From Microbacterium sp. (lineage in GTDB: Bacteria; Actinomycetota; Actinomycetes; Actinomycetales; Microbacteriaceae), in assembly GCA_017306415.1 (NCBI GenBank), contig JAFKIL010000002.1, positions 124,001 through 188,000 of the forward strand: 64,000 nucleotides of DNA. The letters run 5' to 3'. Position 1 is the first letter of the stretch. Each line of letters begins with the position of its first letter. The notes under the pieces were generated by a model that was not told where the DNA came from, did no database searches, and was given only the letters and a program-made list of their open reading frames with translations. This document shows positions 41,561-60,744 of the stretch, in pieces. The translations under genes were made by a program, and so were the position numbers.

Positions 41561-43023
41561 GTCACGTTCCGCAGCTCGAAGTCGATCTCGAACGTCCGGT
41601 TCCAGGGGAAGTCGAACGCGAACGGCTCCCAGCGCGAGCCGGACATCTCCGCGGCGGCGGCGACGAGTCGCTCTGCGACCGCGCCGCGGTAGCGGTGCGC
41701 GACGACGTCGTCGGTGAACGGGAGCGAGAAGTGCTCGCGGTACTCCCCGATGCCACCGAGCTCGGTGCGCACGCGGCTCTGGTAGAAGTCGTCCTCGATG
41801 ATGCGATGCCACAGCTGCCGCTCCCGCAGGGCGGCGGTGTCCACTCCAGCCCGCGCGCTCAGCACCGATGCCACCGCCGTCGCGACGACGCCGCCGATGG
41901 TGTTGCCCGCCGTGTTCCACCCCCCGTAGGCCAGGAGCTCTCCGAGCAGCCCGCGACCGGCCAGGAGGTCGGTGAGCGCCGTGTCCGAGCCGTTCGGCTC
42001 CCAGACGTCGGCGAGCGCGACCGCCCTCCCCTCCTCGAGAGCCCTCTCGACGAGGACCGCCGCGGCGGTCCGGGCCTCGTCGGCGGCACCGCCGCTCGGC
42101 CCGTGGACGATGAGGACGACGTCCGGATCCGCTCCCGCCGACGAGGTGGCACCGGCGGCGCGGATCTGGCGCTCGACGGTGATGCGGGCGGGGACGTTCT
42201 CGAACGGCGCGATCCGCTCGGCCGCGCCCGGTGACGCGAAGGCCGGCGACAGCCGTACCGGTGTCGCTGCGTCCGCCGAGAGGGTGCGGGCCACGAGGAC
42301 CGCGCCGACCTCGTCCGCGCCGGGGTAGCTGTGGGTCGCTCCCCCGATGCCCGGCGCCTCCGCCCACCGATCGATCCACAGCTGCTCCAGCGTGCCCGCC
42401 GCGCGGGCGGCGGTGTCGTCGGCGGTCAGGAACAGCTCGCGGAACGCACCACGCGCGGCGCCGTGGACGAGGGAGAGGTTGACGATGTGATTGCGCAGAC
42501 GTCGTTCGTGGAAGTCGCGCAGGACATCGACCGGCACGGTGGCCGCAGCGTCGAGCCGCGAGCGCTCGCGCAGGAACATCTCGTGCTCCTGGGCGCCGAG
42601 GCGGTGCAGCTCGCGGCCGTGGTCGGACCAGTATTCGGGCTCCTCGGAGCTGCTGTAGGAGTCCGATGCGCGCATCACCGTCGACATCACGCGGATCGGC
42701 CGATCCGGGCGCGACTCGGACATCCGGCGGACGGTCTCGAGCCGTCCGAGGATCTCGGCCAGGGAATCGTCGTTCGTCCGGGAAGGTATGAGACCGCCGT
42801 AGCCGAGGGTGTCCGCCGAGACGATCACGGCGTCGGCGTCCGCAGCGACGTCGAGCAGCCATCGACGGATCGCCTCGGGGTCGCCTCCGTCGCGCATGCG
42901 GGGCAGGGCCGCGGCGGGTGGGAGCAGGAGCTCGGCGCCGCCGATCCGCGCCACCTCACGCGGCAGCGACACGTTCACGGGCCGTTCGTCGAGCGGGACG
43001 AGCGCGATCGTGCGGACGTTCAT
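41557..43023 (-). CDS. DUF4127 family protein
   Basis: 488 residues. It begins with the family hallmark IALVPLDERPVNVSLP and has VIVSADTLGYGGLIPSR (about 70-86) and AYGGWNTAGNTIGG (about 379-392). DUF4127 has no assigned reaction; the conserved Asp, Asn and His clusters suggest a hydrolase or lyase acting on a sugar derivative. It sits between NanE and the BadF kinase with 4-nt overlaps on both sides, so it must act in the same pathway. Confidence 0.85.
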   Translation of the reverse strand: MNVRTIALVPLDERPVNVSLPREVARIGGAELLLPPAAALPRMRDGGDPEAIRRWLLDVAADADAVIVSADTLGYGGLIPSRTNDDSLAEILGRLETVRRMSESRPDRPIRVMSTVMRASDSYSSSEEPEYWSDHGRELHRLGAQEHEMFLRERSRLDAAATVPVDVLRDFHERRLRNHIVNLSLVHGAARGAFRELFLTADDTAARAAGTLEQLWIDRWAEAPGIGGATHSYPGADEVGAVLVARTLSADAATPVRLSPAFASPGAAERIAPFENVPARITVERQIRAAGATSSAGADPDVVLIVHGPSGGAADEARTAAAVLVERALEEGRAVALADVWEPNGSDTALTDLLAGRGLLGELLAYGGWNTAGNTIGGVVATAVASVLSARAGVDTAALRERQLWHRIIEDDFYQSRVRTELGGIGEYREHFSLPFTDDVVAHRYRGAVAERLVAAAAEMSGSRWEPFAFDFPWNRTFEIDFELRNVT

Positions 43024-43721
43024 CGGAGACCTCCGGCGAAGCGGGCGGCGAGGGCCCGCGGATCCGAGATCGCCGTCCCGACGACGACGGACCACGCCCC
43101 CGCGGCGAGCGCCGCGGTCACCTCGGACGGGACGGTGACGCCGCCCTCCAGCACGGCGCGCACACCGGATGCCGCGAGCGCTCCGAGGAGATCGAGGTCG
43201 GGCTGCGGTCGTCCCGTGGTCGACGACGTATGGCCCGAGAGCGTGGTCGCCACGAGCGCGGCGCCGGCATCCCAGGCGTGCACGCCCTCGGCGAGCGTGG
43301 ACACGTCGGCCATGATCGGCGCGCCGAGCTCATCCGAGACCCGGGCGAACAGGTCTGCGATCTCGCCGGGCCGACGCGAGTCGGCCACCGCTTCGACCGC
43401 GAGGATGTCGGCACCCGCCTCGACCAGGCGCGCACAGTCGTCGAAGTCGGGCGTGATGAAGGGCCGCGGCGATGCGTCGCCGTAGCGCTTGGTGAGTCCG
43501 ACGATGGGCAGAGCCGTGTGCGCGCGCACGGCCGCGACGTGTTCGGGCGACGCGATGCGCAGTCCCGACGCCCCTCCGCACTCGACCGCCGCGGCGACGG
43601 CCGCGATCACGTGGGACGCGGCCATGGGCGAGTGAGGCGGCGCCTGACAGGAGACGACGAGTCCCCCGCGGATCGCCGCGACCGCCCCGGTTCGATCGAC
43701 CTCGCCGATCACTGTCGTCAT
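43020..43721 (-). CDS. nanE: N-acetylmannosamine-6-phosphate 2-epimerase
   Basis: 233 residues, a TIM barrel. Motifs LVVSCQAPPHSPM (about 21-33), IVGLTKRYGDASPRPFITPDF and LEGGVTVPSEVTAALAAGAWSVVVGTAI are those of NanE. It converts ManNAc-6-P to GlcNAc-6-P in sialic acid or ManNAc use. The ATG at 43721 has GGGAG upstream. First gene of nanE-DUF4127-badF; no canonical nanA, nagA or nagB follows. Confidence 0.88.
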   Translation of the reverse strand: MTTVIGEVDRTGAVAAIRGGLVVSCQAPPHSPMAASHVIAAVAAAVECGGASGLRIASPEHVAAVRAHTALPIVGLTKRYGDASPRPFITPDFDDCARLVEAGADILAVEAVADSRRPGEIADLFARVSDELGAPIMADVSTLAEGVHAWDAGAALVATTLSGHTSSTTGRPQPDLDLLGALAASGVRAVLEGGVTVPSEVTAALAAGAWSVVVGTAISDPRALAARFAGGLR

Positions 43722-43825: not shown

Positions 43826-43842
43826 TTCCGCTATGGCGCGGA
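43826..43842. promoter_or_regulatory. Candidate IclR-type site in nanE-tatA intergenic region
   Basis: TTCCGCTATGGCGCGGA has a perfect left half TTCCGC and a degenerate right half. Its core CCGCTATG is identical to that of the dyad at 52043-52057. The 195-bp gap 43722-43916 also contains the divergent promoters of nanE and tatA. Confidence 0.35.
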
Positions 43843-43916
43843 CTACTTCACCATGCTAGCGTGACAGCAACATTCACTGAGTGTAACTATCCGCCTCACG
43901 CTATTGGAGTGTCGCT

Positions 43917-44168
43917 GTGCTCTCAAATCTCACGGGATGGCACGCCATCATCATCCTCGCCATCGTTCTGCTGATCTTCGGCGCCGCCAAGCTCCCCGCG
44001 TTGGCGAAGAGCGTCGGGCAGTCCGTCCGCATCCTCCAGAAGGAGGTCAAGTCCGGCGCGAAGGAGAAGGCCGACGTCGGCACGCTGGAGCAGCAGGCCG
44101 CTTCCGCCGACGCGCCGAGTCTGGTCGTCGTCGAGACCTCGACCCCGGGCACCACCGCGAACGCCTGA
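43917..44168 (+). CDS. tatA: Twin-arginine translocase subunit TatA
   Basis: 83 residues: an N-terminal membrane helix (WHAIIILAIVLLIFGAAKLPALAKSVGQS), the FGAAKLP hinge and an amphipathic helix, then a short tail. TatA multimers form the export pore. GTG start at 43917. First of tatA-tatC-tatB, a complete Tat set inside a carbohydrate catabolic cluster. Confidence 0.93.
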   Translation: MLSNLTGWHAIIILAIVLLIFGAAKLPALAKSVGQSVRILQKEVKSGAKEKADVGTLEQQAASADAPSLVVVETSTPGTTANA

Positions 44169-44174
44169 CCGCGC

Positions 44175-44969
44175 ATGCGCCTCACAGCGACGCGCCCGGC
44201 GGGCGGAACGATGTCCCTCGCGGAGCACCTCGGAGAGCTCCGCCGCCGGGCGGTGCGCGCAGCGATCGCCCTGGCGGCGGGGATGGTCGCCGGGTGGTTC
44301 CTCGCCGATGTCGTCCTGGCGCTGTTGCGGGATCCGATCGCGGTCGCGGCCCTGCAGCAGGACAGGCCGGTCGCGCTCAACTTCACCTCGGTCTCGGCCG
44401 CGTTCGATCTGCGCGTCCAGATCGCGGTCGTCGCAGGCATCGTGATCGCCAGCCCGGTGTGGCTCTACCAGCTGTTCGCCTTCTTCATGCCGGCGCTGAG
44501 CAGGCGCGAGCGTCGCTACACCCTCGGCTTCACCTTCGCCGCCCTCCCCCTGTTCCTCGCCGGGTGCGCTGCCGGAATCTGGGTGGTCCCCCACATCGTC
44601 GCCCTGCTGACCGCGTTCGCGCCGGCGGATTCGCTCACGTACCTCGACGCACGCTCCTACTTCGATTTCGTGCTCCGCCTCGTCCTCATCACGGGGGTCG
44701 CCTTCGTCCTGCCTCTGGTGCTCGTCCTACTGAACTTCGCGGGAGTCGTGTCGGGGGTCGCCATCCTGAAGGCGTGGCGGTGGGCCGTGCTGTCGATCTG
44801 CCTCTTCACCGCGATCGCGACGCCGGCGGCAGACGTCATGGCGATGCTCCTGCTCGCCATCCCGATGGTCCTCCTCTACGTCGGCGCGTGCGGCGTCGCC
44901 CTCCTCTCCGACCGTCGCCGCAGCCGCGCGCTCAGCGCGACGATCGACCTCCCCGCTGTCGAGGTCTGA
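44175..44969 (+). CDS. tatC: Twin-arginine translocase subunit TatC
   Basis: 264 residues, six membrane segments. The conserved SLAEHLGELRRR (about 14-25), FTSVSAAFDLRVQIAV and IVIASPVWLYQLFAFFMPAL are TatC hallmarks; it binds the twin-arginine signal. A start at 44211 (MSLAEHL) is possible and would match many TatC proteins. It begins 6 nt after tatA. Confidence 0.95.
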   Translation: MRLTATRPAGGTMSLAEHLGELRRRAVRAAIALAAGMVAGWFLADVVLALLRDPIAVAALQQDRPVALNFTSVSAAFDLRVQIAVVAGIVIASPVWLYQLFAFFMPALSRRERRYTLGFTFAALPLFLAGCAAGIWVVPHIVALLTAFAPADSLTYLDARSYFDFVLRLVLITGVAFVLPLVLVLLNFAGVVSGVAILKAWRWAVLSICLFTAIATPAADVMAMLLLAIPMVLLYVGACGVALLSDRRRSRALSATIDLPAVEV

Positions 44970-44972
44970 CCG

Positions 44973-45305
44973 ATGCTGGGACTCACCTTCGACAAGATCC
45001 TGATCCTGGGCCTCATCGCCGCCGTGATCGTCGGACCTCGCCGCCTCCCCGCGGCGGCGCGCTGGCTCGGCAGACTGGTGCGCAACCTGCGCACGCTCGC
45101 GTCGGACACCACCGCGCGTGTGCGCGACGAGGTCGGGCCGGAGTTCGACGAGATCGACTGGACGCGGCTCGATCCGCGTCAGTACGACCCCCGGAGGATC
45201 ATCCGGGACGCCCTGACCGCAGACATCTCCGAAGCGCCGCCCCGGGACCGCACATCCGGGGAGGCCGGGAGCGCGGAGCGGGCGAAGGACGTCGCCGAAC
45301 CCTGA
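44973..45305 (+). CDS. tatB: Twin-arginine translocase subunit TatB
   Basis: 110 residues. N-terminal helix FDKILILGLIAAVIVGPRRLPAAARWLGRLVRNLRTLA with the TatB-type GPxRLP hinge, then a longer polar region (PEFDEIDWTRLDPRQYDPRRI) typical of actinobacterial TatB. It forms the receptor complex with TatC. Starts 3 nt after tatC. Confidence 0.92.
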   Translation: MLGLTFDKILILGLIAAVIVGPRRLPAAARWLGRLVRNLRTLASDTTARVRDEVGPEFDEIDWTRLDPRQYDPRRIIRDALTADISEAPPRDRTSGEAGSAERAKDVAEP

Positions 45306-45334
45306 CGCGCGGGGGCATCGCCGGCGGCGCCGGG

Positions 45335-46117
45335 TCACGCGGGCGCGGGCACCCGGCTCACGGACCAGGACAGGGTCGCATGGCGGCGGGCGCCGTCCGG
45401 ATGCCCGAGCCTCGTGGGCAGGTCGGACAGCGGCTCGACGCAGAACGCGCCGGGGAAGGTCTCGCACACGATCCACGCTCGCGCCTCAGCGGATTCCAGT
45501 CGCAGCCCGAGGACGCCGGGCCACACGACGACAGGATCGGACCGAAGGGCGTGGACCACCGCATCCCGAGGGGGCGGGGGTGGCGCCGTGTCCCGCCCCG
45601 CGCCGTCGACCCACCGGCCGCCGTCGAGCATGACGCTCCCGCGGGAGCCTCGGAGCTCTTCACGGAACCAGGGATGCCAGCCCAGCACGACGGGACCCGG
45701 CAGATCGGAGTCCCAGCGGAGGGTCGCCGCGATGCGGTCCTCCGCGACGCTCCATCGGATGCGCGCCCGCGCGGGGGTGACCCACGGTTCGCCGACGCGC
45801 GTCTCCAGCGTTACCGACAGGTCGGAGCGATCCACGACCGTCCAGGCGCTGCTGTGCACCAGCCCGTGGTCGATGTGCCCGTCCCGATGGGTGGGCTCGA
45901 GGGCGATCCGGCGCCGACCGGCCGCCACGCCGGCCGCGGGGAGTCTCCCGGCGAACGGCGCCAGCAGGAATGCGCCGTCGTAGAAGCCCGCGAGATCGCC
46001 CGGTTCCGGGGTCGACGACCCGAGCACCTCGTCGCCCCCGAACGTCAGCGACACCGCCCGGGCACCGCGCCGCTCGTCCACGACGAGCGTCGTCGAAGAG
46101 GCGCGGAGCTCGATCAC
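45335..46117 (-). CDS. Aldose 1-epimerase family protein
   Basis: 260 residues. GAFLLAPFAGRLPAAGV, HIDHGLVHSSAW (catalytic His about 93) and WHPWFREEL (second His) are galactose mutarotase-like motifs; CETFPGAFCVEPLSDLP near the end supplies the glutamate. It equilibrates anomers of a sugar substrate. GTG at 46117 overlaps the SDR stop (GTGA). Last gene of the operon from the Rid gene. Confidence 0.85.
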   Translation of the reverse strand: MIELRASSTTLVVDERRGARAVSLTFGGDEVLGSSTPEPGDLAGFYDGAFLLAPFAGRLPAAGVAAGRRRIALEPTHRDGHIDHGLVHSSAWTVVDRSDLSVTLETRVGEPWVTPARARIRWSVAEDRIAATLRWDSDLPGPVVLGWHPWFREELRGSRGSVMLDGGRWVDGAGRDTAPPPPPRDAVVHALRSDPVVVWPGVLGLRLESAEARAWIVCETFPGAFCVEPLSDLPTRLGHPDGARRHATLSWSVSRVPAPA

Positions 46118-46905
46118 CTCGACCGCTCGTCCGGCACGATCTGGGCGGCCATCGCCACATTCCCCGCCATCAGCCCTCCGTCGACGATGAGGGACTCGCC
46201 GTTGATCCACCCGGACTGGGAGCCGGTGAGGAAGACCGCCGCGTCCGCGACATCCTCCGGGCGTCCGAGCCGCGTCGACGGATACCATCGGCGACTGTCC
46301 TCGAGCACGTGCGGGTCCTGCGCGATCCGGTGGTCCCACGCGGGAGTGACGATCGTTCCGGGGACGATCGCGTTCGCGCGGATGCCGTCCGCCCCGAACC
46401 GCACCGCGAGGCTCCGGGTCAACGAGATCAGCCCGGCCTTCGCGGCGCTGTACGAGACGTTCCCGAGATACTGCAGGGCGTTGACCGACGAGATGTTGAC
46501 GATCGATCCGTGGCCCGCGGCGAGCATGTCGGGAAGCGCCAGCTGGGCGGTGTGGAACGCGGCCGTGAGACACACCGAGACATCCCGCTTCCACTCCTCG
46601 ACCGTCAGATCGAGGAAGTCGGCGTCGGCGCAGGTCATCGCGTTGTTGATCAGGACGGAGACAGGGCCGCGTCGATCGCGCACCTCCCGGAACACCTCCG
46701 CCAGCCGCCCCCGATCGGTGACGTCGGCCTGGAACCAGATCGCCCCCGTCGCCTGGGATGCTGCCCGCTCGGCGGCATCCGCGTCGATGTCGACGATCAC
46801 CACCCTCGCCCCGAGCGCAGCGAACCGCTGCGCCATCACCGCGCCGATGCCCGAGCCCGCGCCCGTGATCAGTACGCACTCGTCCTGCCGTCGCTCCGTG
46901 GTCAT
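46114..46905 (-). CDS. Short-chain dehydrogenase/reductase
   Basis: 263 residues. Cofactor loop TGAGSGIGAVMA (about 14-25), LINNAM (about 85) and catalytic NISSVNALQYLGNVSYSAAKAG (Ser, Tyr and Lys about 139-156); the C-terminus SLIVDGGL is normal. Asp at the end of strand 2 (VIVDIDADAA) predicts NAD. Probably oxidises a sugar or sugar acid hydroxyl. It starts 19 nt after the D-aminoacylase stop. Confidence 0.9.
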   Translation of the reverse strand: MTTERRQDECVLITGAGSGIGAVMAQRFAALGARVVIVDIDADAAERAASQATGAIWFQADVTDRGRLAEVFREVRDRRGPVSVLINNAMTCADADFLDLTVEEWKRDVSVCLTAAFHTAQLALPDMLAAGHGSIVNISSVNALQYLGNVSYSAAKAGLISLTRSLAVRFGADGIRANAIVPGTIVTPAWDHRIAQDPHVLEDSRRWYPSTRLGRPEDVADAAVFLTGSQSGWINGESLIVDGGLMAGNVAMAAQIVPDERSR

Positions 46906-46924
46906 CGCTCGCTTCCGTCCTCTC

Positions 46925-48490
46925 TCATCCTCGGATCCCGCCGCCGACGAGGGATCCCGTCAGCCGGCCGTCGGCGAGCACCGGCACGCCGGCGACCAGG
47001 ACGTCGTCCACTCCGACCGCGGTGCGCCGCGGGTGGCGGTACGTCGCACGGTCGCGGATGCGCCGCGGGTCGATGACGGCGATGTCGGCCACCGCCCCCG
47101 GCCGGATCCGCCCGCGGTCGTCGAGGCCGAGGATCTCGGCCGGGAGCGCCGCCAGATGCACCGCGGCATCCGCCCACCTAAGATCACCGCGCTCGGCGGT
47201 GTACACGGACAGCAGTCGAGCGAAGGTGCCCCACGCCCGCGGGTGCGGACTCCCCCCGAGCGGGATGCCGTCGGATCCGCCGGTGAACCAGGGACTCGTG
47301 AAGATGCGCGCGAGTTCGTCGTCGCTGCGGCGTCGGGGGTTGCGTGCGACGACCACCGCATGGAGACGCGTCGCCGCCAGCACCCGGCACGCCAGATCGA
47401 GCGGATCCTCGCCGCGGGACGCGCCGGCCTCGGCCAGCGTCATCCCCTCGATGTCGCGCAGCTCCGGGGCGGGGACGGACGAGTAGCTGATGGCGTCGAG
47501 CCATGCCCCGCCGAGATCAGGGCGGCGGGCGACCTCGGGGAACCACGTACGCTTCAGCTCCCGCACCCTGTCCGGCTCGGAGAGCGCGCGCGCCGCTTCG
47601 TCCAGCCCCGATGCGACCAGCTCGGGTGGCAGGATCAGCATGCCGAGGAGCGTGCATCCTCGGCGGTACGGGTAGGCGTCGAACGTGCCTCGGCGGCCGC
47701 CCGCGTCGAGCCGCGCCATCTCGGACAGGACGAGGTCGGGCTCGCCGTGCAGGTGGGAGATGTGCACTCGCGCCCCCGAGCCGTCCGCGATCCGGATGAC
47801 CTCGTCGACGCCCTGGGGGATCGCGCGCTCGTATCCACCCCGCATGTGCGTCACGTACACCTTGCCCGCGTCTCCCGCGACGCGGGCGAGCGTGACGAGC
47901 TCGCGGGTGTCGGCGAAGGCCCCCGGGACGTAGTCCAGACCCGACGACACACCCACGGCCCCCTCTGACAGGGCATCCGCGACCAGTGTCGACATCCGCT
48001 CTATCTCGTCCTCGCTCGCGGCTCCGGGGACGTCACCGCGCACCAGATGCCGGATCGTGCCCAGGGGCGCCAGGTACGCGACGTTGACCCGGATGCGGCC
48101 GTCGTAGCCCCGCAGGAGGGCGCCGACCCCGGTGCCGTCGTAGTGCCGGATGCCGTCGAGTATCCCACCGAAGTAGTCGGCGCCGTGCGACCCCGGACCG
48201 GGAGCGAACGACACGCCGTCCTGTCCCGCGACCACGGTGGTCACACCCTGCCGGAGGAGCGCTTCCTGCACGTCGTCGTCGTACACCCTGCCGTCGGCGT
48301 GCGAATGCATGTCGATCAGTCCCGGCATGACGACGCGCCCGGCGCAGTCGATCACCCGCGCATCCACGACATCGATGTCGGGTCCGACCTCCGAGATCGA
48401 CCCGCCCTCGACGAGGACGTCCGCGCGGACGCCGTCGCGACCGGATCCGTCCACGACGAACCCGCGGCGCAGGAGAACCCGGGTGCTCAC
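46925..48490 (-). CDS. N-acyl-D-amino-acid deacylase (D-aminoacylase family)
   Basis: 521 residues, amidohydrolase fold. Metal ligands: MPGLIDMHSHAD (HxH, about 62-64), VTHMRG (about 212), HISHLHGEPD (about 241) and the catalytic Asp in GGSDGIPLGG (about 374); GRVRP-like GRIRPGAVADIAVIDP closes the barrel. It removes the acyl group of N-acyl-D-amino acids or related N-acyl compounds. GTG at 48490 overlaps the upstream stop (GTGA). With a Rid protein and a D-amino-acid PLP enzyme nearby it supports a D-amino-acid-containing substrate. Confidence 0.88.
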   Translation of the reverse strand: MSTRVLLRRGFVVDGSGRDGVRADVLVEGGSISEVGPDIDVVDARVIDCAGRVVMPGLIDMHSHADGRVYDDDVQEALLRQGVTTVVAGQDGVSFAPGPGSHGADYFGGILDGIRHYDGTGVGALLRGYDGRIRVNVAYLAPLGTIRHLVRGDVPGAASEDEIERMSTLVADALSEGAVGVSSGLDYVPGAFADTRELVTLARVAGDAGKVYVTHMRGGYERAIPQGVDEVIRIADGSGARVHISHLHGEPDLVLSEMARLDAGGRRGTFDAYPYRRGCTLLGMLILPPELVASGLDEAARALSEPDRVRELKRTWFPEVARRPDLGGAWLDAISYSSVPAPELRDIEGMTLAEAGASRGEDPLDLACRVLAATRLHAVVVARNPRRRSDDELARIFTSPWFTGGSDGIPLGGSPHPRAWGTFARLLSVYTAERGDLRWADAAVHLAALPAEILGLDDRGRIRPGAVADIAVIDPRRIRDRATYRHPRRTAVGVDDVLVAGVPVLADGRLTGSLVGGGIRG

Positions 48491-49461
48491 ACTGCCTCCA
48501 CACGGACCGCCCACATGGGTGCGCGCAGACCGGTGATCTCCTCGGTCCAGGCGCCGGTCTCCGGGTCGAGGTCCAGGATCCTCCCGCCGTCCCGGTCGAC
48601 GACCAGCAGGCGACGACCGTCGCTCAGCAGCTGCTGCGGCCACGAGCCGGGGATGGCGACCTCCCGCTCGACGGCGACGGTTCCCGCGTCCCGCGTCAGT
48701 ACGCTGACGCTGGAGCGCCCGCGGATCGCGACGACGACACCGCCGGGGACGCGCGCGACGTCACCCGGGTACGCCGGGCCGTCGGCACCGATCGAGGTCG
48801 CCGCCACCGACGACACCACATTCCCCGCCTCGTCGACCACCGTCACGGTGCCGTCGAGCTCGCCCGAGACGATCAGCGAACCGTCCGCGACGACGACGTG
48901 GCGCGGTCCCGCTCCCGGTTCGAGCTCCGCGAACGTGGCCACATGCCATCCGTCGGCGTCGCGATCGAGGGACCAGAGCGCGTCGCTGCCCAGGTCGACG
49001 ACGATCGCGTCGTGGCCGCCGAATCCGGCCAGGACGAAGTGCGGATGCGGCCCCCGCTGGCGCACCGGGTCGGGCCCGGATCCCGAGAGTTCCACGATCT
49101 CCGGCCCCCGGACGGGGATGCCGGTCTCGTCGAGGTCGAAGATCGACACCGTGCCGCTCTCGTAGTTCGCGACGACCAGCCTGTCATCGCCGACGATCGC
49201 CGCGTGGCAGGGCTCGGCGCCGAACGTCCTGCGGGCGTCGAGGACGGTCAGGCCCCCCTCGTCGGCGCGGATCGTCAGCACCTCGCCGCCGCTCACATCC
49301 CCGCACAGCACGTGGAACGTGCGCGCACGTCGTCCGGCGAGGACGAACGCCGCGTACGAGGCCGGGACGGAGGCCACGACGCCGTCGCCGGACGACGGGA
49401 TCCAGTCGACGCCGCCGTCGGGACCGTAGCGCGCCATGACGAGCCCGCCGTCGAGCGTCAT
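48487..49461 (-). CDS. Lactonase-like seven-bladed propeller protein
   Basis: 324 residues, beta-propeller resembling 6-phosphogluconolactonase (PF10282). Family-like motif GPHPHFVLAG at about 128-137, later ELEPGAGPRHVVVA and VLTRDAGTVAVEREV. No signal peptide. It may open a sugar lactone made by the SDR. ATGA overlap with the Rid gene and GTGA overlap with the deacylase gene. Confidence 0.75.
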   Translation of the reverse strand: MTLDGGLVMARYGPDGGVDWIPSSGDGVVASVPASYAAFVLAGRRARTFHVLCGDVSGGEVLTIRADEGGLTVLDARRTFGAEPCHAAIVGDDRLVVANYESGTVSIFDLDETGIPVRGPEIVELSGSGPDPVRQRGPHPHFVLAGFGGHDAIVVDLGSDALWSLDRDADGWHVATFAELEPGAGPRHVVVADGSLIVSGELDGTVTVVDEAGNVVSSVAATSIGADGPAYPGDVARVPGGVVVAIRGRSSVSVLTRDAGTVAVEREVAIPGSWPQQLLSDGRRLLVVDRDGGRILDLDPETGAWTEEITGLRAPMWAVRVEAV

Positions 49462-49826
49462 CGGTCGGCCAGCCGCGCGATGCAGTCGATCTCGACCGAG
49501 ATGCCCGCCAGGGCGGCCCCGACCGTCGTGCGGGCCGGCGCGGCTCCGGAGAAGAACTCCCCGTACGCCGCATCCATCTCGGCGAAGTCCGCGATGTCCG
49601 CGAGGAAGACCCCGCATCGCACGACGTCGTCGAGCGTGGCTCCCGCGGCGGCCAGCACGGACTGGACGTTGCGCAGGGTGATCCGCGTCTGCTCGGCGAC
49701 CGTACCCGCGACGACCACGCCGTCGACGAGGGGACCCTGGCCGGAGACGAAGACGAATCGGCCCTCGGCGACGACCGCCGGGGAGTACGTCCCGGTCGGC
49801 GTCGAGCCGTCTGTGATGTGCTCCAT
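49458..49826 (-). CDS. RidA/YjgF family enamine/imine deaminase
   Basis: 122 residues, a single Rid domain. The substrate-binding Arg is in PARTTVGAALAG (about 100) and the Glu in ISVEIDCIA, so an active deaminase is expected. It hydrolyses 2-aminoacrylate-type enamines released by PLP enzymes such as serine/threonine dehydratases; the D-TA-like enzyme at 50749 is a likely source. First gene of a five-gene operon. Confidence 0.9.
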   Translation of the reverse strand: MEHITDGSTPTGTYSPAVVAEGRFVFVSGQGPLVDGVVVAGTVAEQTRITLRNVQSVLAAAGATLDDVVRCGVFLADIADFAEMDAAYGEFFSGAAPARTTVGAALAGISVEIDCIARLADR

Positions 49827-49834
49827 GTCACCTC

Positions 49835-49859
49835 CACTGGAAGACTATTGCGTCCAGTG
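49835..49859. promoter_or_regulatory. Inverted repeat upstream of the Rid operon
   Basis: CACTGGA-N11-TCCAGTG, perfect 7-bp arms, 9-33 nt upstream of the Rid start codon and between it and the iclR stop. Candidate operator for the adjacent IclR or another regulator. Confidence 0.55.
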
Positions 49860-49881
49860 TAAGGGTACCGAGTCGGGGCGG

Positions 49882-50667
49882 TCAGCCGGCCTGGACGCCG
49901 AGACCCTCCTCGATGATCGCCGCGGCGGCGAGGAGCCGATCCGCGATGACGCCCTCGCGGTCGGGCGTCATGCGATATGCGGGGCCGCTGGCGGAGAGCG
50001 CGTACTCATAGCGGCCGGAGCGCCCGCGGAACGCCACCCCGACGCAGCGCAGCCCCTGCTCGCTCTCCTCGTCGTCGATCGCGTAGCCGCGCTCGCGCAC
50101 CCGATCGAGCTCGACGCGCAGCGCCGCCGCGGTGGTGCGGGTGTTCGGGGTGAAGGCGTTGAGCGATCGGCCCGCGAGGACCTCGGCCACGTACTCGTCG
50201 CCCGCCTGGGCGAGGATCGCCTTGCCCACCGACGTGGCGTGCCACTCCTCGAGATCGCCTACCCGCGCCTCCTTGCGGATCGCGTGAGACCCGGGATAGA
50301 CCGCGAGAACGACCAGCTGCCGTCCCTCGGCGCTCGCCAGCTCGACGGTCTCGCCCAGCAGCGACGCCAACTCCATCAGGGGGCGCTCGGCCACCGAGCG
50401 GGGGTCGGTCTCCACGGGAGCGGCCTGACCCCACTCGTAGAGCTTCACACCCAGGCGATAGCTGCCGTCCTTCACGTCGCGCCCCACGATGTGATGCTTC
50501 CGGAGCGCCGCGAGGTAGCGCAGCGCGGTGGGCTCGCTCAGACCGGTGGCACGCGCGATGTCCGCGAGGCTCGCCGTGCCGACGTCGCGCAGCGCGTCGA
50601 TCACCGAGATGGCACGGTCGACAGCGACCAGCCCCTCGCCCTGCTTCGAGTCCACGTGCTTCACCAC
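49882..50667 (-). CDS. IclR family transcriptional regulator
   Basis: 261 residues. N-terminal winged helix ASLADIARATGLSEPTALRYLAALRKHHIVGR (about 31-62) and a C-terminal IclR effector domain (HATSVGKAILAQ, about 143-154; RGYAIDDEESEQGLRCVGVAF, about 193-213). It sits centrally in the catabolic supercluster, upstream of the Rid operon on the same strand, and is the only specific regulator of the region, so it probably controls several promoters there. Confidence 0.88.
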   Translation of the reverse strand: MVKHVDSKQGEGLVAVDRAISVIDALRDVGTASLADIARATGLSEPTALRYLAALRKHHIVGRDVKDGSYRLGVKLYEWGQAAPVETDPRSVAERPLMELASLLGETVELASAEGRQLVVLAVYPGSHAIRKEARVGDLEEWHATSVGKAILAQAGDEYVAEVLAGRSLNAFTPNTRTTAAALRVELDRVRERGYAIDDEESEQGLRCVGVAFRGRSGRYEYALSASGPAYRMTPDREGVIADRLLAAAAIIEEGLGVQAG

Positions 50668-50748
50668 GTCGCGACTCTATCAGCGGCTGGTTCCGTCCAA
50701 CAGATCATCCGAACACCGAGTGAAATCTCGAACCATCTGCCCCCGCGG

Positions 50749-51990
50749 TCAGAAGTGGGTGCGGATCGCCCCGACGATCGCCGCGGACGGATCGCCCCGA
50801 TGCCGCACCGTCGCGATCACCGGCCACCGGTCGAACGTCGTGCACGGATGCGAGACGCCGAACTCCACGAGGTCGCCGACCTCGACGGACGCGGTACCGC
50901 TGTCCAGAGCGAGGTAGGCGTGCTGGTCGTCCAACGCGGTCACCCTCGCCCCCGCCGCCACGGACTGCGGGCCGCGGTGGATGCCGAGCACGAGCGGCAT
51001 GCCCTGGTCGTAGCCGATGTCCCGCCGGCCGACGTCCACGAGGGCCAGCCCCGGCTCGGGCGCGCTGACGACGCGCCCCCACACCGCGACAGCCGCGTGC
51101 AGCGGCAGCGCGGGTTCCTTCATGCCCTCGTAGTAGCCGTCATCGTGAGCGATTGAGACGCCGGACCGCACGATGACCCGCGCGGACGTGTCGCCGAGAC
51201 CCTCCCTCACCAGGCGCACCGTCTCCGCGATCCCGGCCGAGCCCCCGATGCTCAGCACCGCCGTGCCCGTCGGCACCCGCGGTGCGACCAGATGGAACGC
51301 GGCGACGACGTCGGAGAGGTACGCCCTGAGGCGTCGCTGATCATGGTGCACACCGGGGACCGCGCCCTCGTACGCCCCGATCCCGCGCAGCGCGAGTCCG
51401 TCCGCGTCCCGGACGGCATCGGCGACACGTGCCGCGTCCGCGAGTGAGCGGACGCCCGTACGGGCACCCCGCGACCCCACGTCGACGAGCACCCCGATGC
51501 GGGGGCCCGGACCGGAGCCGCCGGCCGCGAGCACCGCGGCGGGCGAATCCGCCCAGATCAGCGCCTCATCGAGCTCGCCCCGCTGGAGTGCGTCGCGCAC
51601 CGGGGCCATCGCGCCCGGCCGCGCGATCGGGGTGGCGACCTGGATGCGGCGCACACCGGCGTCGAGCGCGACGGCGAGCTGATGCTCGTTCGCCACGGTG
51701 ATCCCCCACGCACCCGCCTGGAGCTGCCGCAGCCACAGCGAGGGGGCCATCGTCGTCTTGCCGTGCGGAGCGAGCTCGACACCCTGGTCGACGCACCACC
51801 TCGCGACAGTGGTCGCGTTGTGGTCGATCTCGTCGGCCGCGAGGACCATCACCGGGGTCGGGAGATCCTCGATCCGAAGGCCGAGCTCTGCGATCTCCCT
51901 CGGGGCCGCCGGGGAGAACGGAAGGGCGCCCTTCAGCTCCACCCGCAGCGGCTGGCGCTGCTCTTCCGCGACATACTCTTCCAGGAACAT
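50749..51990 (-). CDS. D-threonine aldolase / D-serine dehydratase-like PLP enzyme
   Basis: 413 residues, fold-type III (alanine racemase-like) PLP enzyme. The PLP lysine is in LAPHGKTTM (about 77). Near the C-terminus GVSHPCTTFDRW contains the His and Cys that bind the metal in D-serine dehydratases. It would cleave or deaminate a D-beta-hydroxy amino acid. Divergent from a DapA-family gene. It would supply enamine to the Rid protein. Confidence 0.85.
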   Translation of the reverse strand: MFLEEYVAEEQRQPLRVELKGALPFSPAAPREIAELGLRIEDLPTPVMVLAADEIDHNATTVARWCVDQGVELAPHGKTTMAPSLWLRQLQAGAWGITVANEHQLAVALDAGVRRIQVATPIARPGAMAPVRDALQRGELDEALIWADSPAAVLAAGGSGPGPRIGVLVDVGSRGARTGVRSLADAARVADAVRDADGLALRGIGAYEGAVPGVHHDQRRLRAYLSDVVAAFHLVAPRVPTGTAVLSIGGSAGIAETVRLVREGLGDTSARVIVRSGVSIAHDDGYYEGMKEPALPLHAAVAVWGRVVSAPEPGLALVDVGRRDIGYDQGMPLVLGIHRGPQSVAAGARVTALDDQHAYLALDSGTASVEVGDLVEFGVSHPCTTFDRWPVIATVRHRGDPSAAIVGAIRTHF

Positions 51991-52042
51991 GAGGCGCCTT
52001 CCGTGCCATTCGGGTTCCGCTCGGCGAGAATCCGTAGATGTC

Positions 52043-52057
52043 TGCCGCTATGCGGAA
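52043..52057. promoter_or_regulatory. Candidate IclR operator in the DapA-like promoter
   Basis: TGCCGCTATGCGGAA: dyad CCGC-TAT-GCGG extended on one side. It lies directly upstream of a perfect TATACT -10 box (52058-52063), where a repressor would block the DapA-like gene, and in the divergent region shared with the D-TA-like gene. Assignment to the IclR protein is by position. Confidence 0.5.
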
Positions 52058-52063
52058 TATACT
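52058..52063 (+). promoter_or_regulatory. -10 box of the DapA-like gene
   Basis: TATACT, an exact match to a strong -10 element, 33 nt before the start codon. A -35 candidate (TAGATG, 52035-52040) lies 17 bp upstream. Confidence 0.5.
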
Positions 52064-52096
52064 AACGTTGGGTGAAACACTAAGAACAGGATCCAC

Positions 52097-53029
52097 ATGG
52101 CTTTGCTCGGCGGCATACTGCCGGTTCTCTCCACCCCTTTCGATGCGCGGGACGACGTCGACTTCGATGCTCTCGGTTCCGAGATCGATTGGCTTCTCGC
52201 GATCGGGGCAGACGGGGTGACCGTCGCCATGGTTTCAGAGATCCTTCGCCTCGACGCCGACGAACGTCGACGCGTCGGCGAATTCGTGGTCGAAGCGGTC
52301 GCCGGCCGCGCCTCGGTGGTGCTCTCGGCGGGAGCGGAGTCGACGAAGCAGAGCGTGCGCCTCGCCGAGCACGCCGCCACCGTCGGCGCCACGGCCATCA
52401 TGGTGAATCCGCCGCTGAACACGATGGCGGACTCCCGCAGCCTCACGACCTACTTCCGCACCGTGGCCGATGCGACCGGCGAGTTCCCGATCATCGTGCA
52501 GGACGCCTCGGGCTACGTGGGAGCACCCATCCCCCTCGACGTCCTCGTGGGGCTGCTCGACGAGTTCGGTCCGGTGAAGATCCAGTTCAAGCCGGAGGCG
52601 GAGCCCCTCGGGCCGCGCCTGACCGAACTGCTGCGGGCGACCGAGGGAACGGCACGGGTGTTCGAAGGCAGTGGCGGACGGAACCTCATCGAGAGTCATC
52701 GGCGCGGGATCGTCGGCACGATGCCCGGATCCGACCTCGTGTTCGCCATCGTCGCCATCTGGCGTGCGATCGAGTCCGGCGATGCCGAGGCGGCCTATCG
52801 CGTCCAGGAGGGCGTCGTCCCCATCCTCTCCCTGGTCGCCTCTCTCGATTCGTACGTCGCGGTGGAGAAGCATCTGCTGCGGCTGCAGGGCGTGTTCCCG
52901 TCGGCGCGACAGCGGGGCCCGGTGCAGTACACCCTCGACGACATGGCCGTCGCCGAGCTGGAGCGCCTCTTCGCGCGGCTGACATTGATCGTGTCGGGTC
53001 TGGAGACGGCGGACGCGCGCCGCGCCTGA
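52097..53029 (+). CDS. Dihydrodipicolinate synthase family aldolase/lyase
   Basis: 310 residues, TIM barrel of the DapA/NanA family (GGILPVLSTPFDARDDVDFDALGSEIDWLLAIGADGV). The usual YNxP motif is replaced by VQDASGY (about 134-140). The Schiff-base lysine lies in VKIQFKPEAEP (about 159-164) instead of GIKExSG. Relatives cleave sialic acids or dehydrate sugar acids; this variant probably uses a different substrate. Monocistronic, with the gene remnant at 53040-53165 behind it. Confidence 0.8.
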   Translation: MALLGGILPVLSTPFDARDDVDFDALGSEIDWLLAIGADGVTVAMVSEILRLDADERRRVGEFVVEAVAGRASVVLSAGAESTKQSVRLAEHAATVGATAIMVNPPLNTMADSRSLTTYFRTVADATGEFPIIVQDASGYVGAPIPLDVLVGLLDEFGPVKIQFKPEAEPLGPRLTELLRATEGTARVFEGSGGRNLIESHRRGIVGTMPGSDLVFAIVAIWRAIESGDAEAAYRVQEGVVPILSLVASLDSYVAVEKHLLRLQGVFPSARQRGPVQYTLDDMAVAELERLFARLTLIVSGLETADARRA

Positions 53030-53039
53030 CGCGCCGAGG

Positions 53040-53165
53040 TCACTCAGGCGATCCCGAACGCGCTCGTCCGGTTCGTCGAAGGGACCGACGGGTCCACCGG
53101 CGGAGAGAAGGCCAGGACCAACTCATCGCGGCCGCGATCACCGCCTGCTACCCATACTCACGCGA
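53040..53165 (+). pseudogene. Possible decayed coding remnant
   Basis: The 149-bp gap 53030-53178 reads in one frame as TQAIPNALVRFVEGTDGSTGGE and, after a shift, as GQDQLIAAAITACYPYSREEG. Both pieces look protein-like, as if one reading frame had been broken. There is no start codon or RBS, and the parent gene is not recognised. Confidence 0.25.
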
Positions 53166-53178
53166 GGAAGGCAGTTGT

Positions 53179-54329
53179 TCAGCGTTGCTCGAGCACGTAG
53201 TCCGTGAATCCGGGGAGGGTGAAGGAGAGTCGGCCGTGGCTCGTCGCATCGATGAGCCCCTTCTGCAGCAGCTTGTCCCGCGGGACCCCGAGCGCCTGCG
53301 TGCCGACGCCGAGATGAGCGGCGATGTCTTCACGCTTCACGTCTGTACCCCCGAGGGCAGCCATTGCCATCATGAGTTCGCGCTGCTTGACCGATGCCGA
53401 CCGCCATCTGGTGGTGAATAGCGTCCGCATCTTCTTCTCTACGATGGGGCTGGCCGCGGCCACTTGCGCGGCGCGGATATGACCGCCGGCGTCCGGTCGA
53501 CCGGCCGCGAGCCAGCACTCCTCGCCTATCAGCTGCACCTTGTACGCGTAGCCATCGGAGATGGTGACGGCAGACCGGAGCGCGTCTGTGTCCCAGATCA
53601 CGCCGAGATCCTGAGCGGGACTGACAAGGGCTGCCGTTGCACCCAGTTCACCGATGCCGAACAGGGGCTCGAAGTCGAAGCGTTCGCTGAACGTGATCGC
53701 GGACGTGAGGTGGTCCTGGCTGCCGGGCAGTCCGACACAGAACAGACCCGCCGGCGGCGCCTCCGGATCGCTCGCCAGCTCCTGCCAACCTTGTGCGAGG
53801 GCACGCAGGCTCGGCTTGTCGGCAGACTGGACTTCATCGATGAGCACGACAACGCCCTTCGCTCCCCCTCCAGGAGGGACTTCGCAATCGTCGTGAACGC
53901 GCGGATGAACGCCTTCGCGGCTGAGGCCGCGGCCACCGTGCCCGGCTTCACGGTAAGAGTTCCTTTGACCGGCCCGGCGCCGAGGGAGACAGACACGCTG
54001 TCGATGAGCTCGGCGAGTTCCGCCGTCTTCCGTTTCGCGGCAGGCAGCTTCTCGCGTAGCGCGGCGAGGATGGTGGGCAGCAGTTTCTCGTCCTCGTTAG
54101 CTGTCACCCACACCGTGGCAATGTCGTACTTTTCGAACCGGCGCTGCGCTGCTCGCAGCAAACTGGTCTTCCCCACCCCGCGCGCGGCGTGGTCCACTCG
54201 GACTCGACCGATGAACCGCCCGAGCATCGCAAAGAGCTGAGCGCGTTCTTCATAGAACGCGAGCTGGGCGGTGCGGCCTGGGACAGTCTTCGCGACTTCA
54301 CCCGGCGTATACGGGCTCGGCTGAGGCAT
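53179..54329 (-). pseudogene. Frameshifted P-loop ATPase (AAA/STAND-like)
   Basis: Two overlapping frames make one protein of about 380 residues. The first part, from ATG 54329, holds the Walker A region AARGVGKTSLL, whose leading Gly is Ala. The second part holds Walker B VVVLIDEV, GLFCVGLPGSQDHLTS and a C-terminal winged helix (DVKREDIAAHLGVGTQALGV). The frame breaks at a C5 run (53864-53868); one extra base restores it. Flanked by an inverted repeat at 54352-54376. A sequencing error or phase variation could also explain the break. Confidence 0.8.
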
Positions 54330-54351
54330 CGAGTTCCCCTCGTGACGCGGA

Positions 54352-54376
54352 CTTACACATCAAGGAAATGTGTAAG
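54352..54376. promoter_or_regulatory. Inverted repeat upstream of the ATPase pseudogene
   Basis: CTTACACAT-CAAGGAA-ATGTGTAAG: perfect 9-bp arms, AT-rich against the background, 23-47 nt upstream of the pseudogene start. Candidate operator. Confidence 0.6.
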
Positions 54377-54484
54377 CGAGAGCCACGACCCCGGCAAAGG
54401 ACGTGCGCCTCACCTCGTGGAACTCGAAGCGCACCTGTCGATGCCCTGCCGGGCGTCGACCGATCCAGTCTGGCTGCAGGGGGG

Positions 54485-54518
54485 CGAGGGGGTGCGGGGC
54501 GAGCCCCGCACCCCCTCG
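54485..54518. terminator. Terminator of the dpp/beta-helix operon
   Basis: Perfect 16-bp arms CGAGGGGGTGCGGGGC / GCCCCGCACCCCCTCG with GA between, 4 nt after the beta-helix stop codon. No U-tract, as usual in GC-rich actinobacteria. Confidence 0.85.
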
Positions 54519-54522
54519 CAGG

Positions 54523-55683
54523 TCACCGCATCTCGTAGGCGCCGAGGTCCGGGCGACCGCCGCGCACGCGCGGCCGGCCGAGGATGTCCGTCCGGATCCC
54601 GGGGATCGTCGTGCCCGCGTTGATCGCCGGCGACGTGAGACGGAGGCGGAAATCCATGTGCGACGGGTCCTTGAACAGCGGGTCGTACTCGAACACGTCC
54701 TCGACCACGACCGCGTAATCTGAGCCGCCGCCCGTCGTGTCCAGTGCGCCGCCGGCGTTGCCCCAGAAGCAGTTGTGGCTGATCTCCACACCCGTGCCGT
54801 GGGCGTCGTACGACCAGAGGCCCGCGTACGCGTCCCGCTGACCGTTGTCCGCGAAGATGTTGTTCCGGATCTTCACCCCGTCGACGGGCATCCACAGCAC
54901 CATTCCGCCATGCCCGTTCCCTGCGAGGACGTTCTGGTAGATGCGCATGTTGGACACCGTCTCGTAGCCCGCGACCTGGATGCCGTTGTCCCGGTTGTAC
55001 GCGATGACGTTGTTGACGATGAGTTCGTCGTCCGCCTGCAGGTACATGCCGTGGTCGACATCCCATCCGGGTTCGACGTCCCACGGACGACCGTTGTGGT
55101 GGATGAGGTTGCCGATGTACGAGTGGCCGCGCGTGCCCGCACTCGACAGGATGCCCTCCTGCCCGTACGGCTCGGTCGTGGGCGCGATCCCGGTGTGGTG
55201 GATGTCGTTCCCGATGACCTGCAGGAAGTCTCCGGTGACGATGTAGATGCCGCAGAGCTTGCTCCCGCGCATCTCGAAGTCCTGCACGACGTTGTGGCTG
55301 GCGCCGCGCACCGCGATGAGGTTGTTGCTCGTGTAGTTCTCGATGACCGCGCGGTGCTTGACACGGGAGCGGATGACGATCGGCGCGGCGGCGGTGCCGC
55401 TCCGATCCAGCGTGAGCTCGTCGGGCTCGGTGTAGACGCCGGGTTCGACGAGGACCGTGTCTCCCGGGTCCGCACGGCGATAGGCCGCGCCGATCGTGCG
55501 GAAGGGTCGGATCAGCGTGCCGGAATTACTGTCGTTCCCGTGGGGTGCCACGTGCAGGACGGACCCTCCGAACGTCGACGCCTGAGCGGGCGATCCGCCG
55601 GATGCGACGACGGATGCGGCGACCGCGGCACCACCGCCCATGATGCCGAGCATGCCGCGACGCGATACCTGCATGGATTCCAT
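54523..55683 (-). CDS. Tat-exported right-handed parallel beta-helix protein
   Basis: 386 residues. A twin-arginine signal SRRGMLGIMGGGAAVAASVV (about 7-26) ends near ASGGSPAQA. The mature part opens HVAPHGNDSNSGTLIRPFRTIGAA, the usual start of beta-helix lyases, and carries repeated PbH1-like turns (NYTSNNLIAVRGASHNVVQDF, VIGNDIHHTGI, YIGNLIHHNGRPW, RIYQNVLAGNGHGG), ending GRPDLGAYE. Polysaccharide lyase or glycan-binding activity is likely; substrate unknown. Last gene of the transporter operon. AGGAG precedes the ATG at 55683. Confidence 0.85.
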   Translation of the reverse strand: MESMQVSRRGMLGIMGGGAAVAASVVASGGSPAQASTFGGSVLHVAPHGNDSNSGTLIRPFRTIGAAYRRADPGDTVLVEPGVYTEPDELTLDRSGTAAAPIVIRSRVKHRAVIENYTSNNLIAVRGASHNVVQDFEMRGSKLCGIYIVTGDFLQVIGNDIHHTGIAPTTEPYGQEGILSSAGTRGHSYIGNLIHHNGRPWDVEPGWDVDHGMYLQADDELIVNNVIAYNRDNGIQVAGYETVSNMRIYQNVLAGNGHGGMVLWMPVDGVKIRNNIFADNGQRDAYAGLWSYDAHGTGVEISHNCFWGNAGGALDTTGGGSDYAVVVEDVFEYDPLFKDPSHMDFRLRLTSPAINAGTTIPGIRTDILGRPRVRGGRPDLGAYEMR

Positions 55684-55732: not shown

Positions 55733-56749
55733 TTAGAGGGCGACGGCGACGCGGCGCCCGGTTCGCGCGGATTCCTGGGCGGCGAAGACGATGGACAGCG
55801 AGCGCAGACCCGCATCCAGATCGGGCAGCGGAGGGTGTTCGTCGCCGCGGACCATGTCGAGGAACGCCGTGAGGAGCGCCTCGTCGACGTTCTCCCCGAT
55901 CGAGAGTTCGACGGCCGATCCGGTCGCGCCGTCGACCCCGCGGACGGCCGCATCGAAGAAGTCGATGTCCGCCGTTCCGCCGGTGGCGAGGACGTGCAGC
56001 CATACGCCGCCCCACCGTGGCGCCGTGTCGGGCAGCGACCAGGAGCAGTCGATCGAAGCGATGACCCCGTCGGCGTACTCCACCAGGACGAGACCGCCCG
56101 TCTCCACGTCCGCGCGGTCGCGGTGGAGGATGCCGTTGGTCACGGCCGCGACGCTGACCGGCGGGGAGTCCAGGAGCACGTCGAGGAGGTCCGCGACGTG
56201 TACGACGTGATCGAACAGCGCGCCCCCGCCGGCGAGGACCGGATCGGTGAACCAGTCGCGGCTGGAGGGCAGTTTGCCGTTGTTCTCTCCGCGGACGGCG
56301 ACGATCTCGCCCAGGGCGCCCGAGTCGCGGATGCCCACGAGCTGCCGGAAACTCGTCGCGAAGCGCACGGGGTACGCCGTCGCGAACCGCACCCCCGAGC
56401 GCGACACGGCATCGCGGATCGCGTGCGCGTCCGCCCGCTCGGTCGCCAGGGGCTTCTCGCACAGGATGTCGGCGCCGGCGTCGGCCGCCCGCTCGACGAG
56501 CTCCCGGTGCCGGCTGTTCTCGCTCGTGATGATGACGGCATCCGGCTGCCACGCGAACAGCTCGTCGTAGCTGCCGCCATCGGCCGCGCCGAGGCTCTCG
56601 ATGCCGGCGCGCCCGCGATCGGGTGCGCCGAGCCCTTCACCGTCGGGATCCGCGACGCGCACCTCGACGTCGGCGATCCGCGCCAGGATGTCGACGTACG
56701 AGGCGGCGTGCACGTGCGCGAGCGACAGCACACCGACCTTCACCGTCAT
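55733..56749 (-). CDS. Gfo/Idh/MocA family oxidoreductase (1 of 3)
   Basis: 338 residues. N-terminal Rossmann region KVGVLSLAHVHAASYVDIL (the usual GxGxxG is replaced by SLAHVHA), then ILCEKPLATERADA (EKP, about 99) and a C-terminal GFO-like domain with GGALFDHVVHVADLL (about 183-197). Probably an NAD(P)-dependent sugar dehydrogenase or dehydratase; the atypical glycine loop suggests altered cofactor use. ATGA overlap with the next upstream gene. Confidence 0.85.
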   Translation of the reverse strand: MTVKVGVLSLAHVHAASYVDILARIADVEVRVADPDGEGLGAPDRGRAGIESLGAADGGSYDELFAWQPDAVIITSENSRHRELVERAADAGADILCEKPLATERADAHAIRDAVSRSGVRFATAYPVRFATSFRQLVGIRDSGALGEIVAVRGENNGKLPSSRDWFTDPVLAGGGALFDHVVHVADLLDVLLDSPPVSVAAVTNGILHRDRADVETGGLVLVEYADGVIASIDCSWSLPDTAPRWGGVWLHVLATGGTADIDFFDAAVRGVDGATGSAVELSIGENVDEALLTAFLDMVRGDEHPPLPDLDAGLRSLSIVFAAQESARTGRRVAVAL

Positions 56750-57735
56750 CGCGCGACGCCCGTCTCGCTCAATCGCACGAGCTGCCCCGTGCGCGCGGAC
56801 AGGACGGCCGCCTCGGCGATCCGCACCGCCTCGTGGCCGTCCTCTGCCGTCACCCGCGGGGTCGAGCCCGTGCGCAGGCTCTGCAGGAAGTCCGCGACCT
56901 CGAGGGCGTAGGGATCGACCGCGGCGGAGAGCGCCGGGAGATGGCCGCCGTCGGTGGCGACCGGTGCGAGGTCGAAGGACAGCTCCGTCTCCCGGGAGCT
57001 CGAGTACTCGAGGCGGCCGCGCGACCCGGCGACGGAGAACCCGGTCGTGAACTCGAGATGATGGGGACCCCAGACACCCGCGCACGAGCTGATCGCCCCC
57101 GAAGCGTGCCGGAGGAGCACGTGGGCGGCGTGGACGGGATCCCCCTGGGATCGCCGCGTCGCCTGCGCGAAGACGCTCTCCACCTCGCCGGCGAGCCAGC
57201 GGGCCTGATCCAGGTCGTGGATCATCTGATCCAGGATGATGCCTCCGGACAGCTCCTCCGCGCCGTACCACTCCGCGCCCGCAGGGTAGGCGGACGAACG
57301 CGAGAAGCGCAGCACGGCGAGCTCGCCCAGGCGCCCCGACTCGACGGCCCTCCGCAGCTCTGCGTACGCCGGGAAGTAGCGCACGACGTGGGCGGGGAAC
57401 AGCGGCACGCCCGCGCGACGGGCGAGGTCGACGAGCTCTGCGCTCTGCGCGCTCGTGCGGGCGAGCGGCTTCTCCGCGATCACCGGGACCCCCGCGGCGA
57501 GCACGCGCCGGGCGATCTCGTGGTGGGTATGGGTGGGAGTTGCGATCAGGACCACATCGCTCGCGGCGATGAGCTCGTCGAGGCTCGTGACGATGTCCAT
57601 GCCGTGCTGCGCCGCCAGTTCTCCGGCACCCTCGTGGGCGAACACGGTCACATCGCCGAACGCGACGAGGTTCGGGGCGTGGAGCGACACGATGCCGCCC
57701 GCTCCGACCAGACCGATCCGTGGCCGTTCCTGCAT
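56746..57735 (-). CDS. Gfo/Idh/MocA family oxidoreductase (2 of 3)
   Basis: 329 residues. Canonical nucleotide loop GLVGAGGIVSLHAPNLV (about 8-24), VIAEKPLARTSAQ (EKP, about 92), and GGIILDQMIHDLDQARWL (about 185-202) with the family Asp-His pair. Likely a sugar or inositol-type dehydrogenase. Its stop overlaps oxidoreductase 1. Confidence 0.88.
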   Translation of the reverse strand: MQERPRIGLVGAGGIVSLHAPNLVAFGDVTVFAHEGAGELAAQHGMDIVTSLDELIAASDVVLIATPTHTHHEIARRVLAAGVPVIAEKPLARTSAQSAELVDLARRAGVPLFPAHVVRYFPAYAELRRAVESGRLGELAVLRFSRSSAYPAGAEWYGAEELSGGIILDQMIHDLDQARWLAGEVESVFAQATRRSQGDPVHAAHVLLRHASGAISSCAGVWGPHHLEFTTGFSVAGSRGRLEYSSSRETELSFDLAPVATDGGHLPALSAAVDPYALEVADFLQSLRTGSTPRVTAEDGHEAVRIAEAAVLSARTGQLVRLSETGVAR

Positions 57736-57790
57736 TCGGATGCTCCTTCCTCTCCGGCCGGCTCGCGCCGGCGCTCGGGCTCGGCGTGCG

Positions 57791-60725: not shown

Positions 60726-60744
60726 CAGTACTCCTTGAAGCGCG

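Follow-up and report, generated by a model that had tools for sequence, protein, structure and literature searches.

The window analysed here, a 64,000-nucleotide stretch of a Microbacterium sp. genome, carries a complete set of genes for the twin-arginine translocation (Tat) system, placed among catabolic genes. The source genome comprises 3.76 Mb in 13 contigs; the window corresponds to positions 124001–188000 of contig C11, and has a G+C content of 71%. Three intact and adjacent tat genes, all on the plus strand, were identified:

43917..44168, plus strand: accessory tatA, with a GTG start (PF02416, 53.3 bits; TIGR01411, 54.4 against a cut-off of 53.9)
44175..44969, with an alternative start at 44211, plus strand: accessory tatC (PF00902, 181.9 bits against a cut-off of 25.1; TIGR00945, 155.5 against 132.7)
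44973..45305, plus strand: accessory tatB (PF02416, 26.4 against a cut-off of 21; TIGR01410, 45.4, under the cut-off of 56.5)

The Pfam and NCBIfam profile scores rule out that these are chance open reading frames. By gene content the set is of the TatABC type, predicted to export folded proteins bearing twin-arginine (RR) signals. Alignment of the window TatC with that of Escherichia coli indicates that it keeps the residues aligned with E15, R17, E103 and D211, among which E15 and E103 are signal-recognition residues. The window TatB is 49% identical to the other TatB of the genome over residues 2–92.

Two TatC proteins are encoded in the source genome, the window copy and one at C1:243060, with a mutual identity of 47%. 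The latter lies beside the housekeeping TatA (C1:242742), while a separate second TatB is found at C1:781135. The C1 tatA-tatC pair has neighbours common to other housekeeping tat loci, of the pafBC/helY type, and the window set lies outside such surroundings. Since the genome holds the C1 tatA-tatC pair and a distant tatB, the window set is a true, complete second set, and the possibility that it is the sole tat operon of the genome is ruled out. The initial annotation had proposed a complete extra Tat translocase and suggested a search for a second tat set in the genome; the search found one, and the proposal is borne out. For the actinobacterial housekeeping Tat, the passages of PMC4383559 on Corynebacterium glutamicum describe a tatAC operon, with tatB normally apart. 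The window set has the same three components and type, but its tatB directly follows tatC, unlike that of C. glutamicum or the housekeeping tatB of its own genome.

In order to determine how common such extra sets are, TatC was searched for in 99 genomes of the genus; it is present in all 99, and at least two tatC genes are found in 23 of these, the source genome included. Across the phylum, 9 of 147 other genomes show at least two TatC matches; in one of the nine, this seems to reflect a single gene broken across contigs. The initial annotation's remark that such systems are rarely described appears fair: the relevant portions of a 2013 survey (PMC3827258) attribute two tatC loci to Microbacterium testaceum and give a figure of 2% for multiple tatC outside Bacilli, and there neighbouring substrate genes are examined for Bacilli only.

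I then gathered stretches of up to 20 kb flanking the 26 extra copies of the other 22 multi-copy genomes of the genus, a tat locus of Leifsonia and 17 additional copies in other genera (part of the multi-copy genomes sampled, giving 20 stretches, 3 of which are housekeeping loci). Three kinds of locus can be distinguished. In kind A, tatA-tatC-tatB comes directly after the gene for a Tat-lipoprotein that contains an intradiol-dioxygenase-like domain; three loci (L018, L058, L060), in which a weak helicase match had suggested a housekeeping set, were assigned to this group by hand. In kind B, tatA-tatC without tatB lies in a locus that is, by look, exopolysaccharide-like. Kind C comprises all remaining extra loci, which are mostly catabolic. 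The tatB gene adjoins in 14/14 dioxygenase-linked and 15/21 other loci.

These stretches were searched for genes encoding Tat signals with a home-made filter, in a called-start version and then in an any-start version to allow for mis-called starts, both applied to all groups; L069 and L070, whose contigs measure 5.3 and 3.1 kb, were left out of the any-start counts. With the latter version, at least one Tat-signal gene was found within ∼10 kb at all nine kind A loci of the genus and all five from other genera, and at all eight kind C loci of the first sample (seven from the genus and that of Leifsonia) and 10 of 12 from other genera. The Fisher values for the two kind C groups are 1e-6 and 3e-6, taking as independent loci some of which are related. 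Only 1/8 kind B loci has such a gene. Without kind B, the extra tat loci of the family thus lie near a Tat-signal gene in 32/34 cases, against 0/18 for housekeeping loci and 5/46 for arbitrary stretches, the last hand-picked at round-number positions in genomes with extra tat and not matched for secreted genes. With called starts only, the counts are 9/9 for kind A, 7/9 for kind C, 1/9 for kind B, 0/15 for housekeeping loci and 4/40 for arbitrary stretches. The kind C loci with no Tat-signal gene are L206, L214 and, outside the any-start counts, L069. One of the five positive arbitrary stretches (L119) encodes a dioxygenase-like lipoprotein with no adjacent cassette. The kind B loci L071 and L073–L079 form a clade of conserved exopolysaccharide-like loci, and it is among these eight that the one locus with a Tat-signal gene was counted.

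The candidate cargo proteins belong to several families, namely Dioxygenase_C, SBP_bac_1/8, a DUF3502-type binding protein, GH43, a xylose-isomerase-like TIM barrel, amidohydrolase and Ferritin_2. The binding protein of L219 has no Pfam match and is 37% identical to that of L085, and the candidates of L209 and L067 have domain matches under cut-off only. Ferritin_2 was identified in four scanned proteins (L213, L217, L221, L224), and the signal of L222 is the same as that of L221; with the putative one of L222 included, Tat-signal Ferritin_2 proteins adjoin extra tatA-tatC pairs at these five loci, which represent four distinct lineages of TatC. At L218 and L225, the neighbours of the extra tat genes include a gene for a Tat sugar-binding lipoprotein, two permease-like genes and, by look, a fructan-hydrolase-like gene.

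Binding proteins allow a comparison within one protein type, which bears on whether the linkage simply follows from sugar clusters encoding secreted proteins. Those of the SBP_bac_1/8 type are Tat-type in 7/7 cases near kind C tat genes and in 0/4 near kind A, while 5 of 46 located elsewhere pass the Tat filter. The 46 comprise all 17 SBP_bac_8 genes of the source genome and 29 from three relatives (41 matches, with loci for 30, one of which, L176, was left out as it is at a tat locus). The Fisher value is 5e-6, where related loci are again treated as independent.

A phylogenetic tree was generated from 80 TatC sequences, with the long-branched L085 left out and the housekeeping rows thinned to 36 of 64. 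All 14 kind A sequences form one clade across genera (support 100/99), as do all nine of kind B (100/100), counting with the latter L070, after its position in a larger, quicker tree of 109 rows. The kind C sequences are scattered: well-supported branches force at least four changes each for the binding-protein-linked and the Ferritin-linked labels, and the 109-row tree forces at least six changes for kind C. In that larger tree, the housekeeping TatC of a Microbacterium indicum contig falls with those of the genus, which points to Microbacterium as the probable genus. As judged from these protein phylogenies, the tree shows several separate origins for the extra TatC of the family. The window TatC groups with that of Leifsonia sp. 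CL147 (L039; 100/99), and then with L050 (96/87); both of these are catabolic loci in which a Tat sugar-binding lipoprotein is encoded no more than 6 kb from the tat genes.

The dioxygenase locus was examined further, in 30 instances. Six possess tatA, tatB and tatC, two possess tatA alone, and 22 have no tat gene within 1.5 kb. At the two tatA-only loci, the next gene is one that at other loci stands after either the entire cassette or the dioxygenase gene. The presence of the cassette thus varies beside a cargo able to do without it. Comparing L250 and L253 with L246, L249 and L251, and with L248 and L252, the cassette is found whole, as an intact-looking tatA only, or absent, with a similar next gene each time.

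I next considered which proteins the window set may export. Two candidates were identified, both in one minus-strand gene run:

54523..55683, minus strand: beta-helix protein with a Tat signal (PF13229, 53.7 bits; N-terminus SRRGMLG), candidate cargo and final gene of the run
L005 1759–3522, about window 65759–67522 (outside the window), same minus-strand run: SBP_bac_5 lipoprotein with an RR signal (ARRTFLG...LAGC)

The beta-helix protein possesses the signal SRRGMLGIMGGGAAVAASVVASGG, and is the sole one among the 68 called genes of the window to pass the strict Tat filter. Its residues 42–115 only resemble the pectate lyase 1ru4 (E 5e-8). Nine called genes separate it from tatB; the gene starts 9.2 kb past the tatB end, and some 10.2 kb away from tatC. 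The initial annotation had placed a beta-helix enzyme with a clear SRRGMLG signal 9 kb from the tat genes, and both the signal and the distance are confirmed. The run to which it belongs comprises ten window genes, and continues beyond the window end. Since the tat genes and both candidate cargo genes lie on opposite strands, they do not form one operon. A conserved pairing of the window tat set with the beta-helix gene was sought in the loci of relatives and in the other 98 genomes of the genus and was not found; at a threshold of E 1e-10, nothing in those 98 genomes matches the beta-helix gene. Among the genome's SBP_bac_5 genes, an RR pair before the core is found in 3 of 10, and the motif RRxFLG in that of the run only.

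The genes surrounding the tat set are as follows:

40622..43625, minus strand: BadF/NagK-like ATPase, DUF4127 and NanE genes, the catabolic genes to the left of tat
within 45335..53029, minus strand: aldose-epimerase-like, SDR, amidohydrolase, lactonase, RidA-like (by look), IclR and D-serine-dehydratase-like genes, to the right of tat
within 45335..53029, plus strand: DHDPS-like gene, the last of the catabolic genes to the right
55733..63973, minus strand: Gfo/Idh/MocA oxidoreductases, epimerase-like, class-III aminotransferase and oligopeptide-type ABC transporter genes, the rest of the beta-helix run

By profile matches both flanks are catabolic, which agrees with the original description of a set lying between sugar-catabolic genes and not at a housekeeping locus. 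The cluster shows no more than a resemblance to those for sialic-acid use; since the DHDPS-like protein scores far under the nanA cut-offs, a sialic-acid role is not claimed. Between the two catabolic blocks, positions 53179–54522 hold a weak open reading frame (53179–53847) with no Pfam match, and 675 bases with no called gene; this is perhaps a gene remnant or a junction. A search for an operator common to the tat and catabolic genes, by palindrome and 13-mer, found none: the tat upstream region (43626–43916) has no palindrome with arms of at least 6 bases, and none of its 13-mers recurs, even allowing one mismatch, in the remaining short intergenic stretches past 40 kb. A single palindrome with 7-base arms is present elsewhere, at 53125–53138.

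Taken together, I consider it somewhat probable that the window set is a complete accessory TatABC translocase, belonging to a class that recurs in the family and adjoins genes for Tat cargo. The neighbouring run would supply its likeliest cargo, namely the beta-helix enzyme and the SBP_bac_5 lipoprotein. In such a system, TatB and TatC would bind the twin-arginine signals of cargo made while the catabolic cluster is on, and would then recruit TatA, as in known Tat systems, so that folded cargo could be exported at the expense of the proton-motive force. The cluster may thus come with additional capacity for export, or with a receptor tuned to the cargo that it encodes.

Several observations weigh against this reading. 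The beta-helix gene is on the strand opposite to tat, in a separate gene run, and at 9.2 kb the window's nearest strict candidate is farther away than in any relative that has one (0.4–6.0 kb). Arbitrary 20-kb stretches, themselves unmatched for secreted genes, contain a Tat-signal gene in 5/46 cases anyway, and as a single case, the proximity of the window tat set and the beta-helix gene could be chance. The SBP_bac_5 signal ARRTFLG fails the strict Tat filter and passes the relaxed one, and an RR pair is also present in 2 of the genome's other nine SBP_bac_5 genes. When the flanks were compared with those of the nearest relatives (80 kb of Leifsonia, 50 kb of L050 and 60 kb of L051; matches at E 1e-15 over half of the query), members of large families alone matched beyond tat, namely SDR, ABC ATPases, dehydrogenase-complex and MFS proteins, and the Gfo/Idh-type gene of L005 near L050. 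A RidA-like protein is common to the window and the L067 locus, at 40% identity. Finally, the dioxygenase gene is present in 44 of the 99 genomes of the genus, and a full tat cassette in 9 of those 44, indicating that cargo of such a type does not need its own Tat. The proposal of a dedicated export system, made in the initial annotation, holds in part: gene neighbourhoods support it well for the loci as a class, where Tat-signal genes accompany extra tat sets far more frequently than they do housekeeping sets or arbitrary stretches, and it is unproven for the window copy, where the beta-helix gene is on the other strand, in a separate run, and has no match in the other 98 genomes of the genus searched. 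For the joint induction with its substrate that the annotation also suggested, no shared upstream element was found.

It may instead be that the second set is a general-purpose spare, which takes the substrates of the housekeeping Tat and adds dose only, its catabolic position being incidental. The retained recognition residues of TatC would fit this, as would the persistence of the dioxygenase-locus cargo in most genomes with no adjacent tat, and the rarity of Tat-signal genes near the exopolysaccharide-like sets devoid of tatB. However, I consider it rather unlikely, given the contrast between the 32/34 other extra sets near Tat-signal genes and the housekeeping sets, which have none, and given that the dioxygenase-linked sets form a single TatC clade across genera, pointing to a lasting pairing. 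It is quite improbable that the cassette is a passenger, which reached a changing catabolic island by transfer or duplication and was kept there with no linked function: its TatC is nearest to that of Leifsonia and not to the housekeeping TatC of its own genus, neighbours differ among close relatives, and elsewhere the cassette is whole, tatA alone or missing beside the same cargo, but all three window genes are intact, the TatC residues are kept, and Tat-signal genes are linked to such sets at a rate far exceeding that of the controls.

The accessory translocase favoured above can be compared to systems already described. A second actinobacterial tatC is already in print, and the passages of PMC3827258 on such copies do not mention a linkage to cargo, a cassette bearing tatB, or several origins. 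The same source, where it deals with Bacillus subtilis, describes the pairs TatAdCd-PhoD and TatAyCy-YwbN, with phoD lying with tatCd and one set used under phosphate limitation. As with TatAdCd-PhoD, there is more than one Tat set per genome, the window holding a second set besides the housekeeping one, and a candidate cargo gene lies by tat in most loci of the class, the nearest candidate of the window being more distant and on the other strand. Unlike the Bacillus sets, the extra catabolic and dioxygenase-kind sets mostly include tatB, and they involve many unrelated families of predicted cargo and several TatC origins within one bacterial family.

Most accounts of the Tat system assume a single general exporter in each cell, and cargo-dedicated isoforms are known mainly from Bacillus. 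A broader proposal, which I put forward tentatively, is that the Tat sets of Microbacteriaceae are evolutionary modules: TatA(B)C may have been copied or transferred repeatedly and independently, each set becoming fixed beside one class of cargo (dioxygenase-like lipoproteins, sugar-binding lipoproteins, ferritin-like proteins or glycosidases) as a cargo-tuned, condition-specific exporter, of which the window would be the sugar-cluster version. The many natural pairings of Tat and cargo, of several origins and in some cases in sugar-uptake loci, offer a ready set for the question of whether TatB and TatC discriminate between RR signals, and bear on why Tat rather than Sec would serve a binding protein. 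The loci in which the cassette is whole, represented by tatA only, or absent beside the same cargo provide natural controls.

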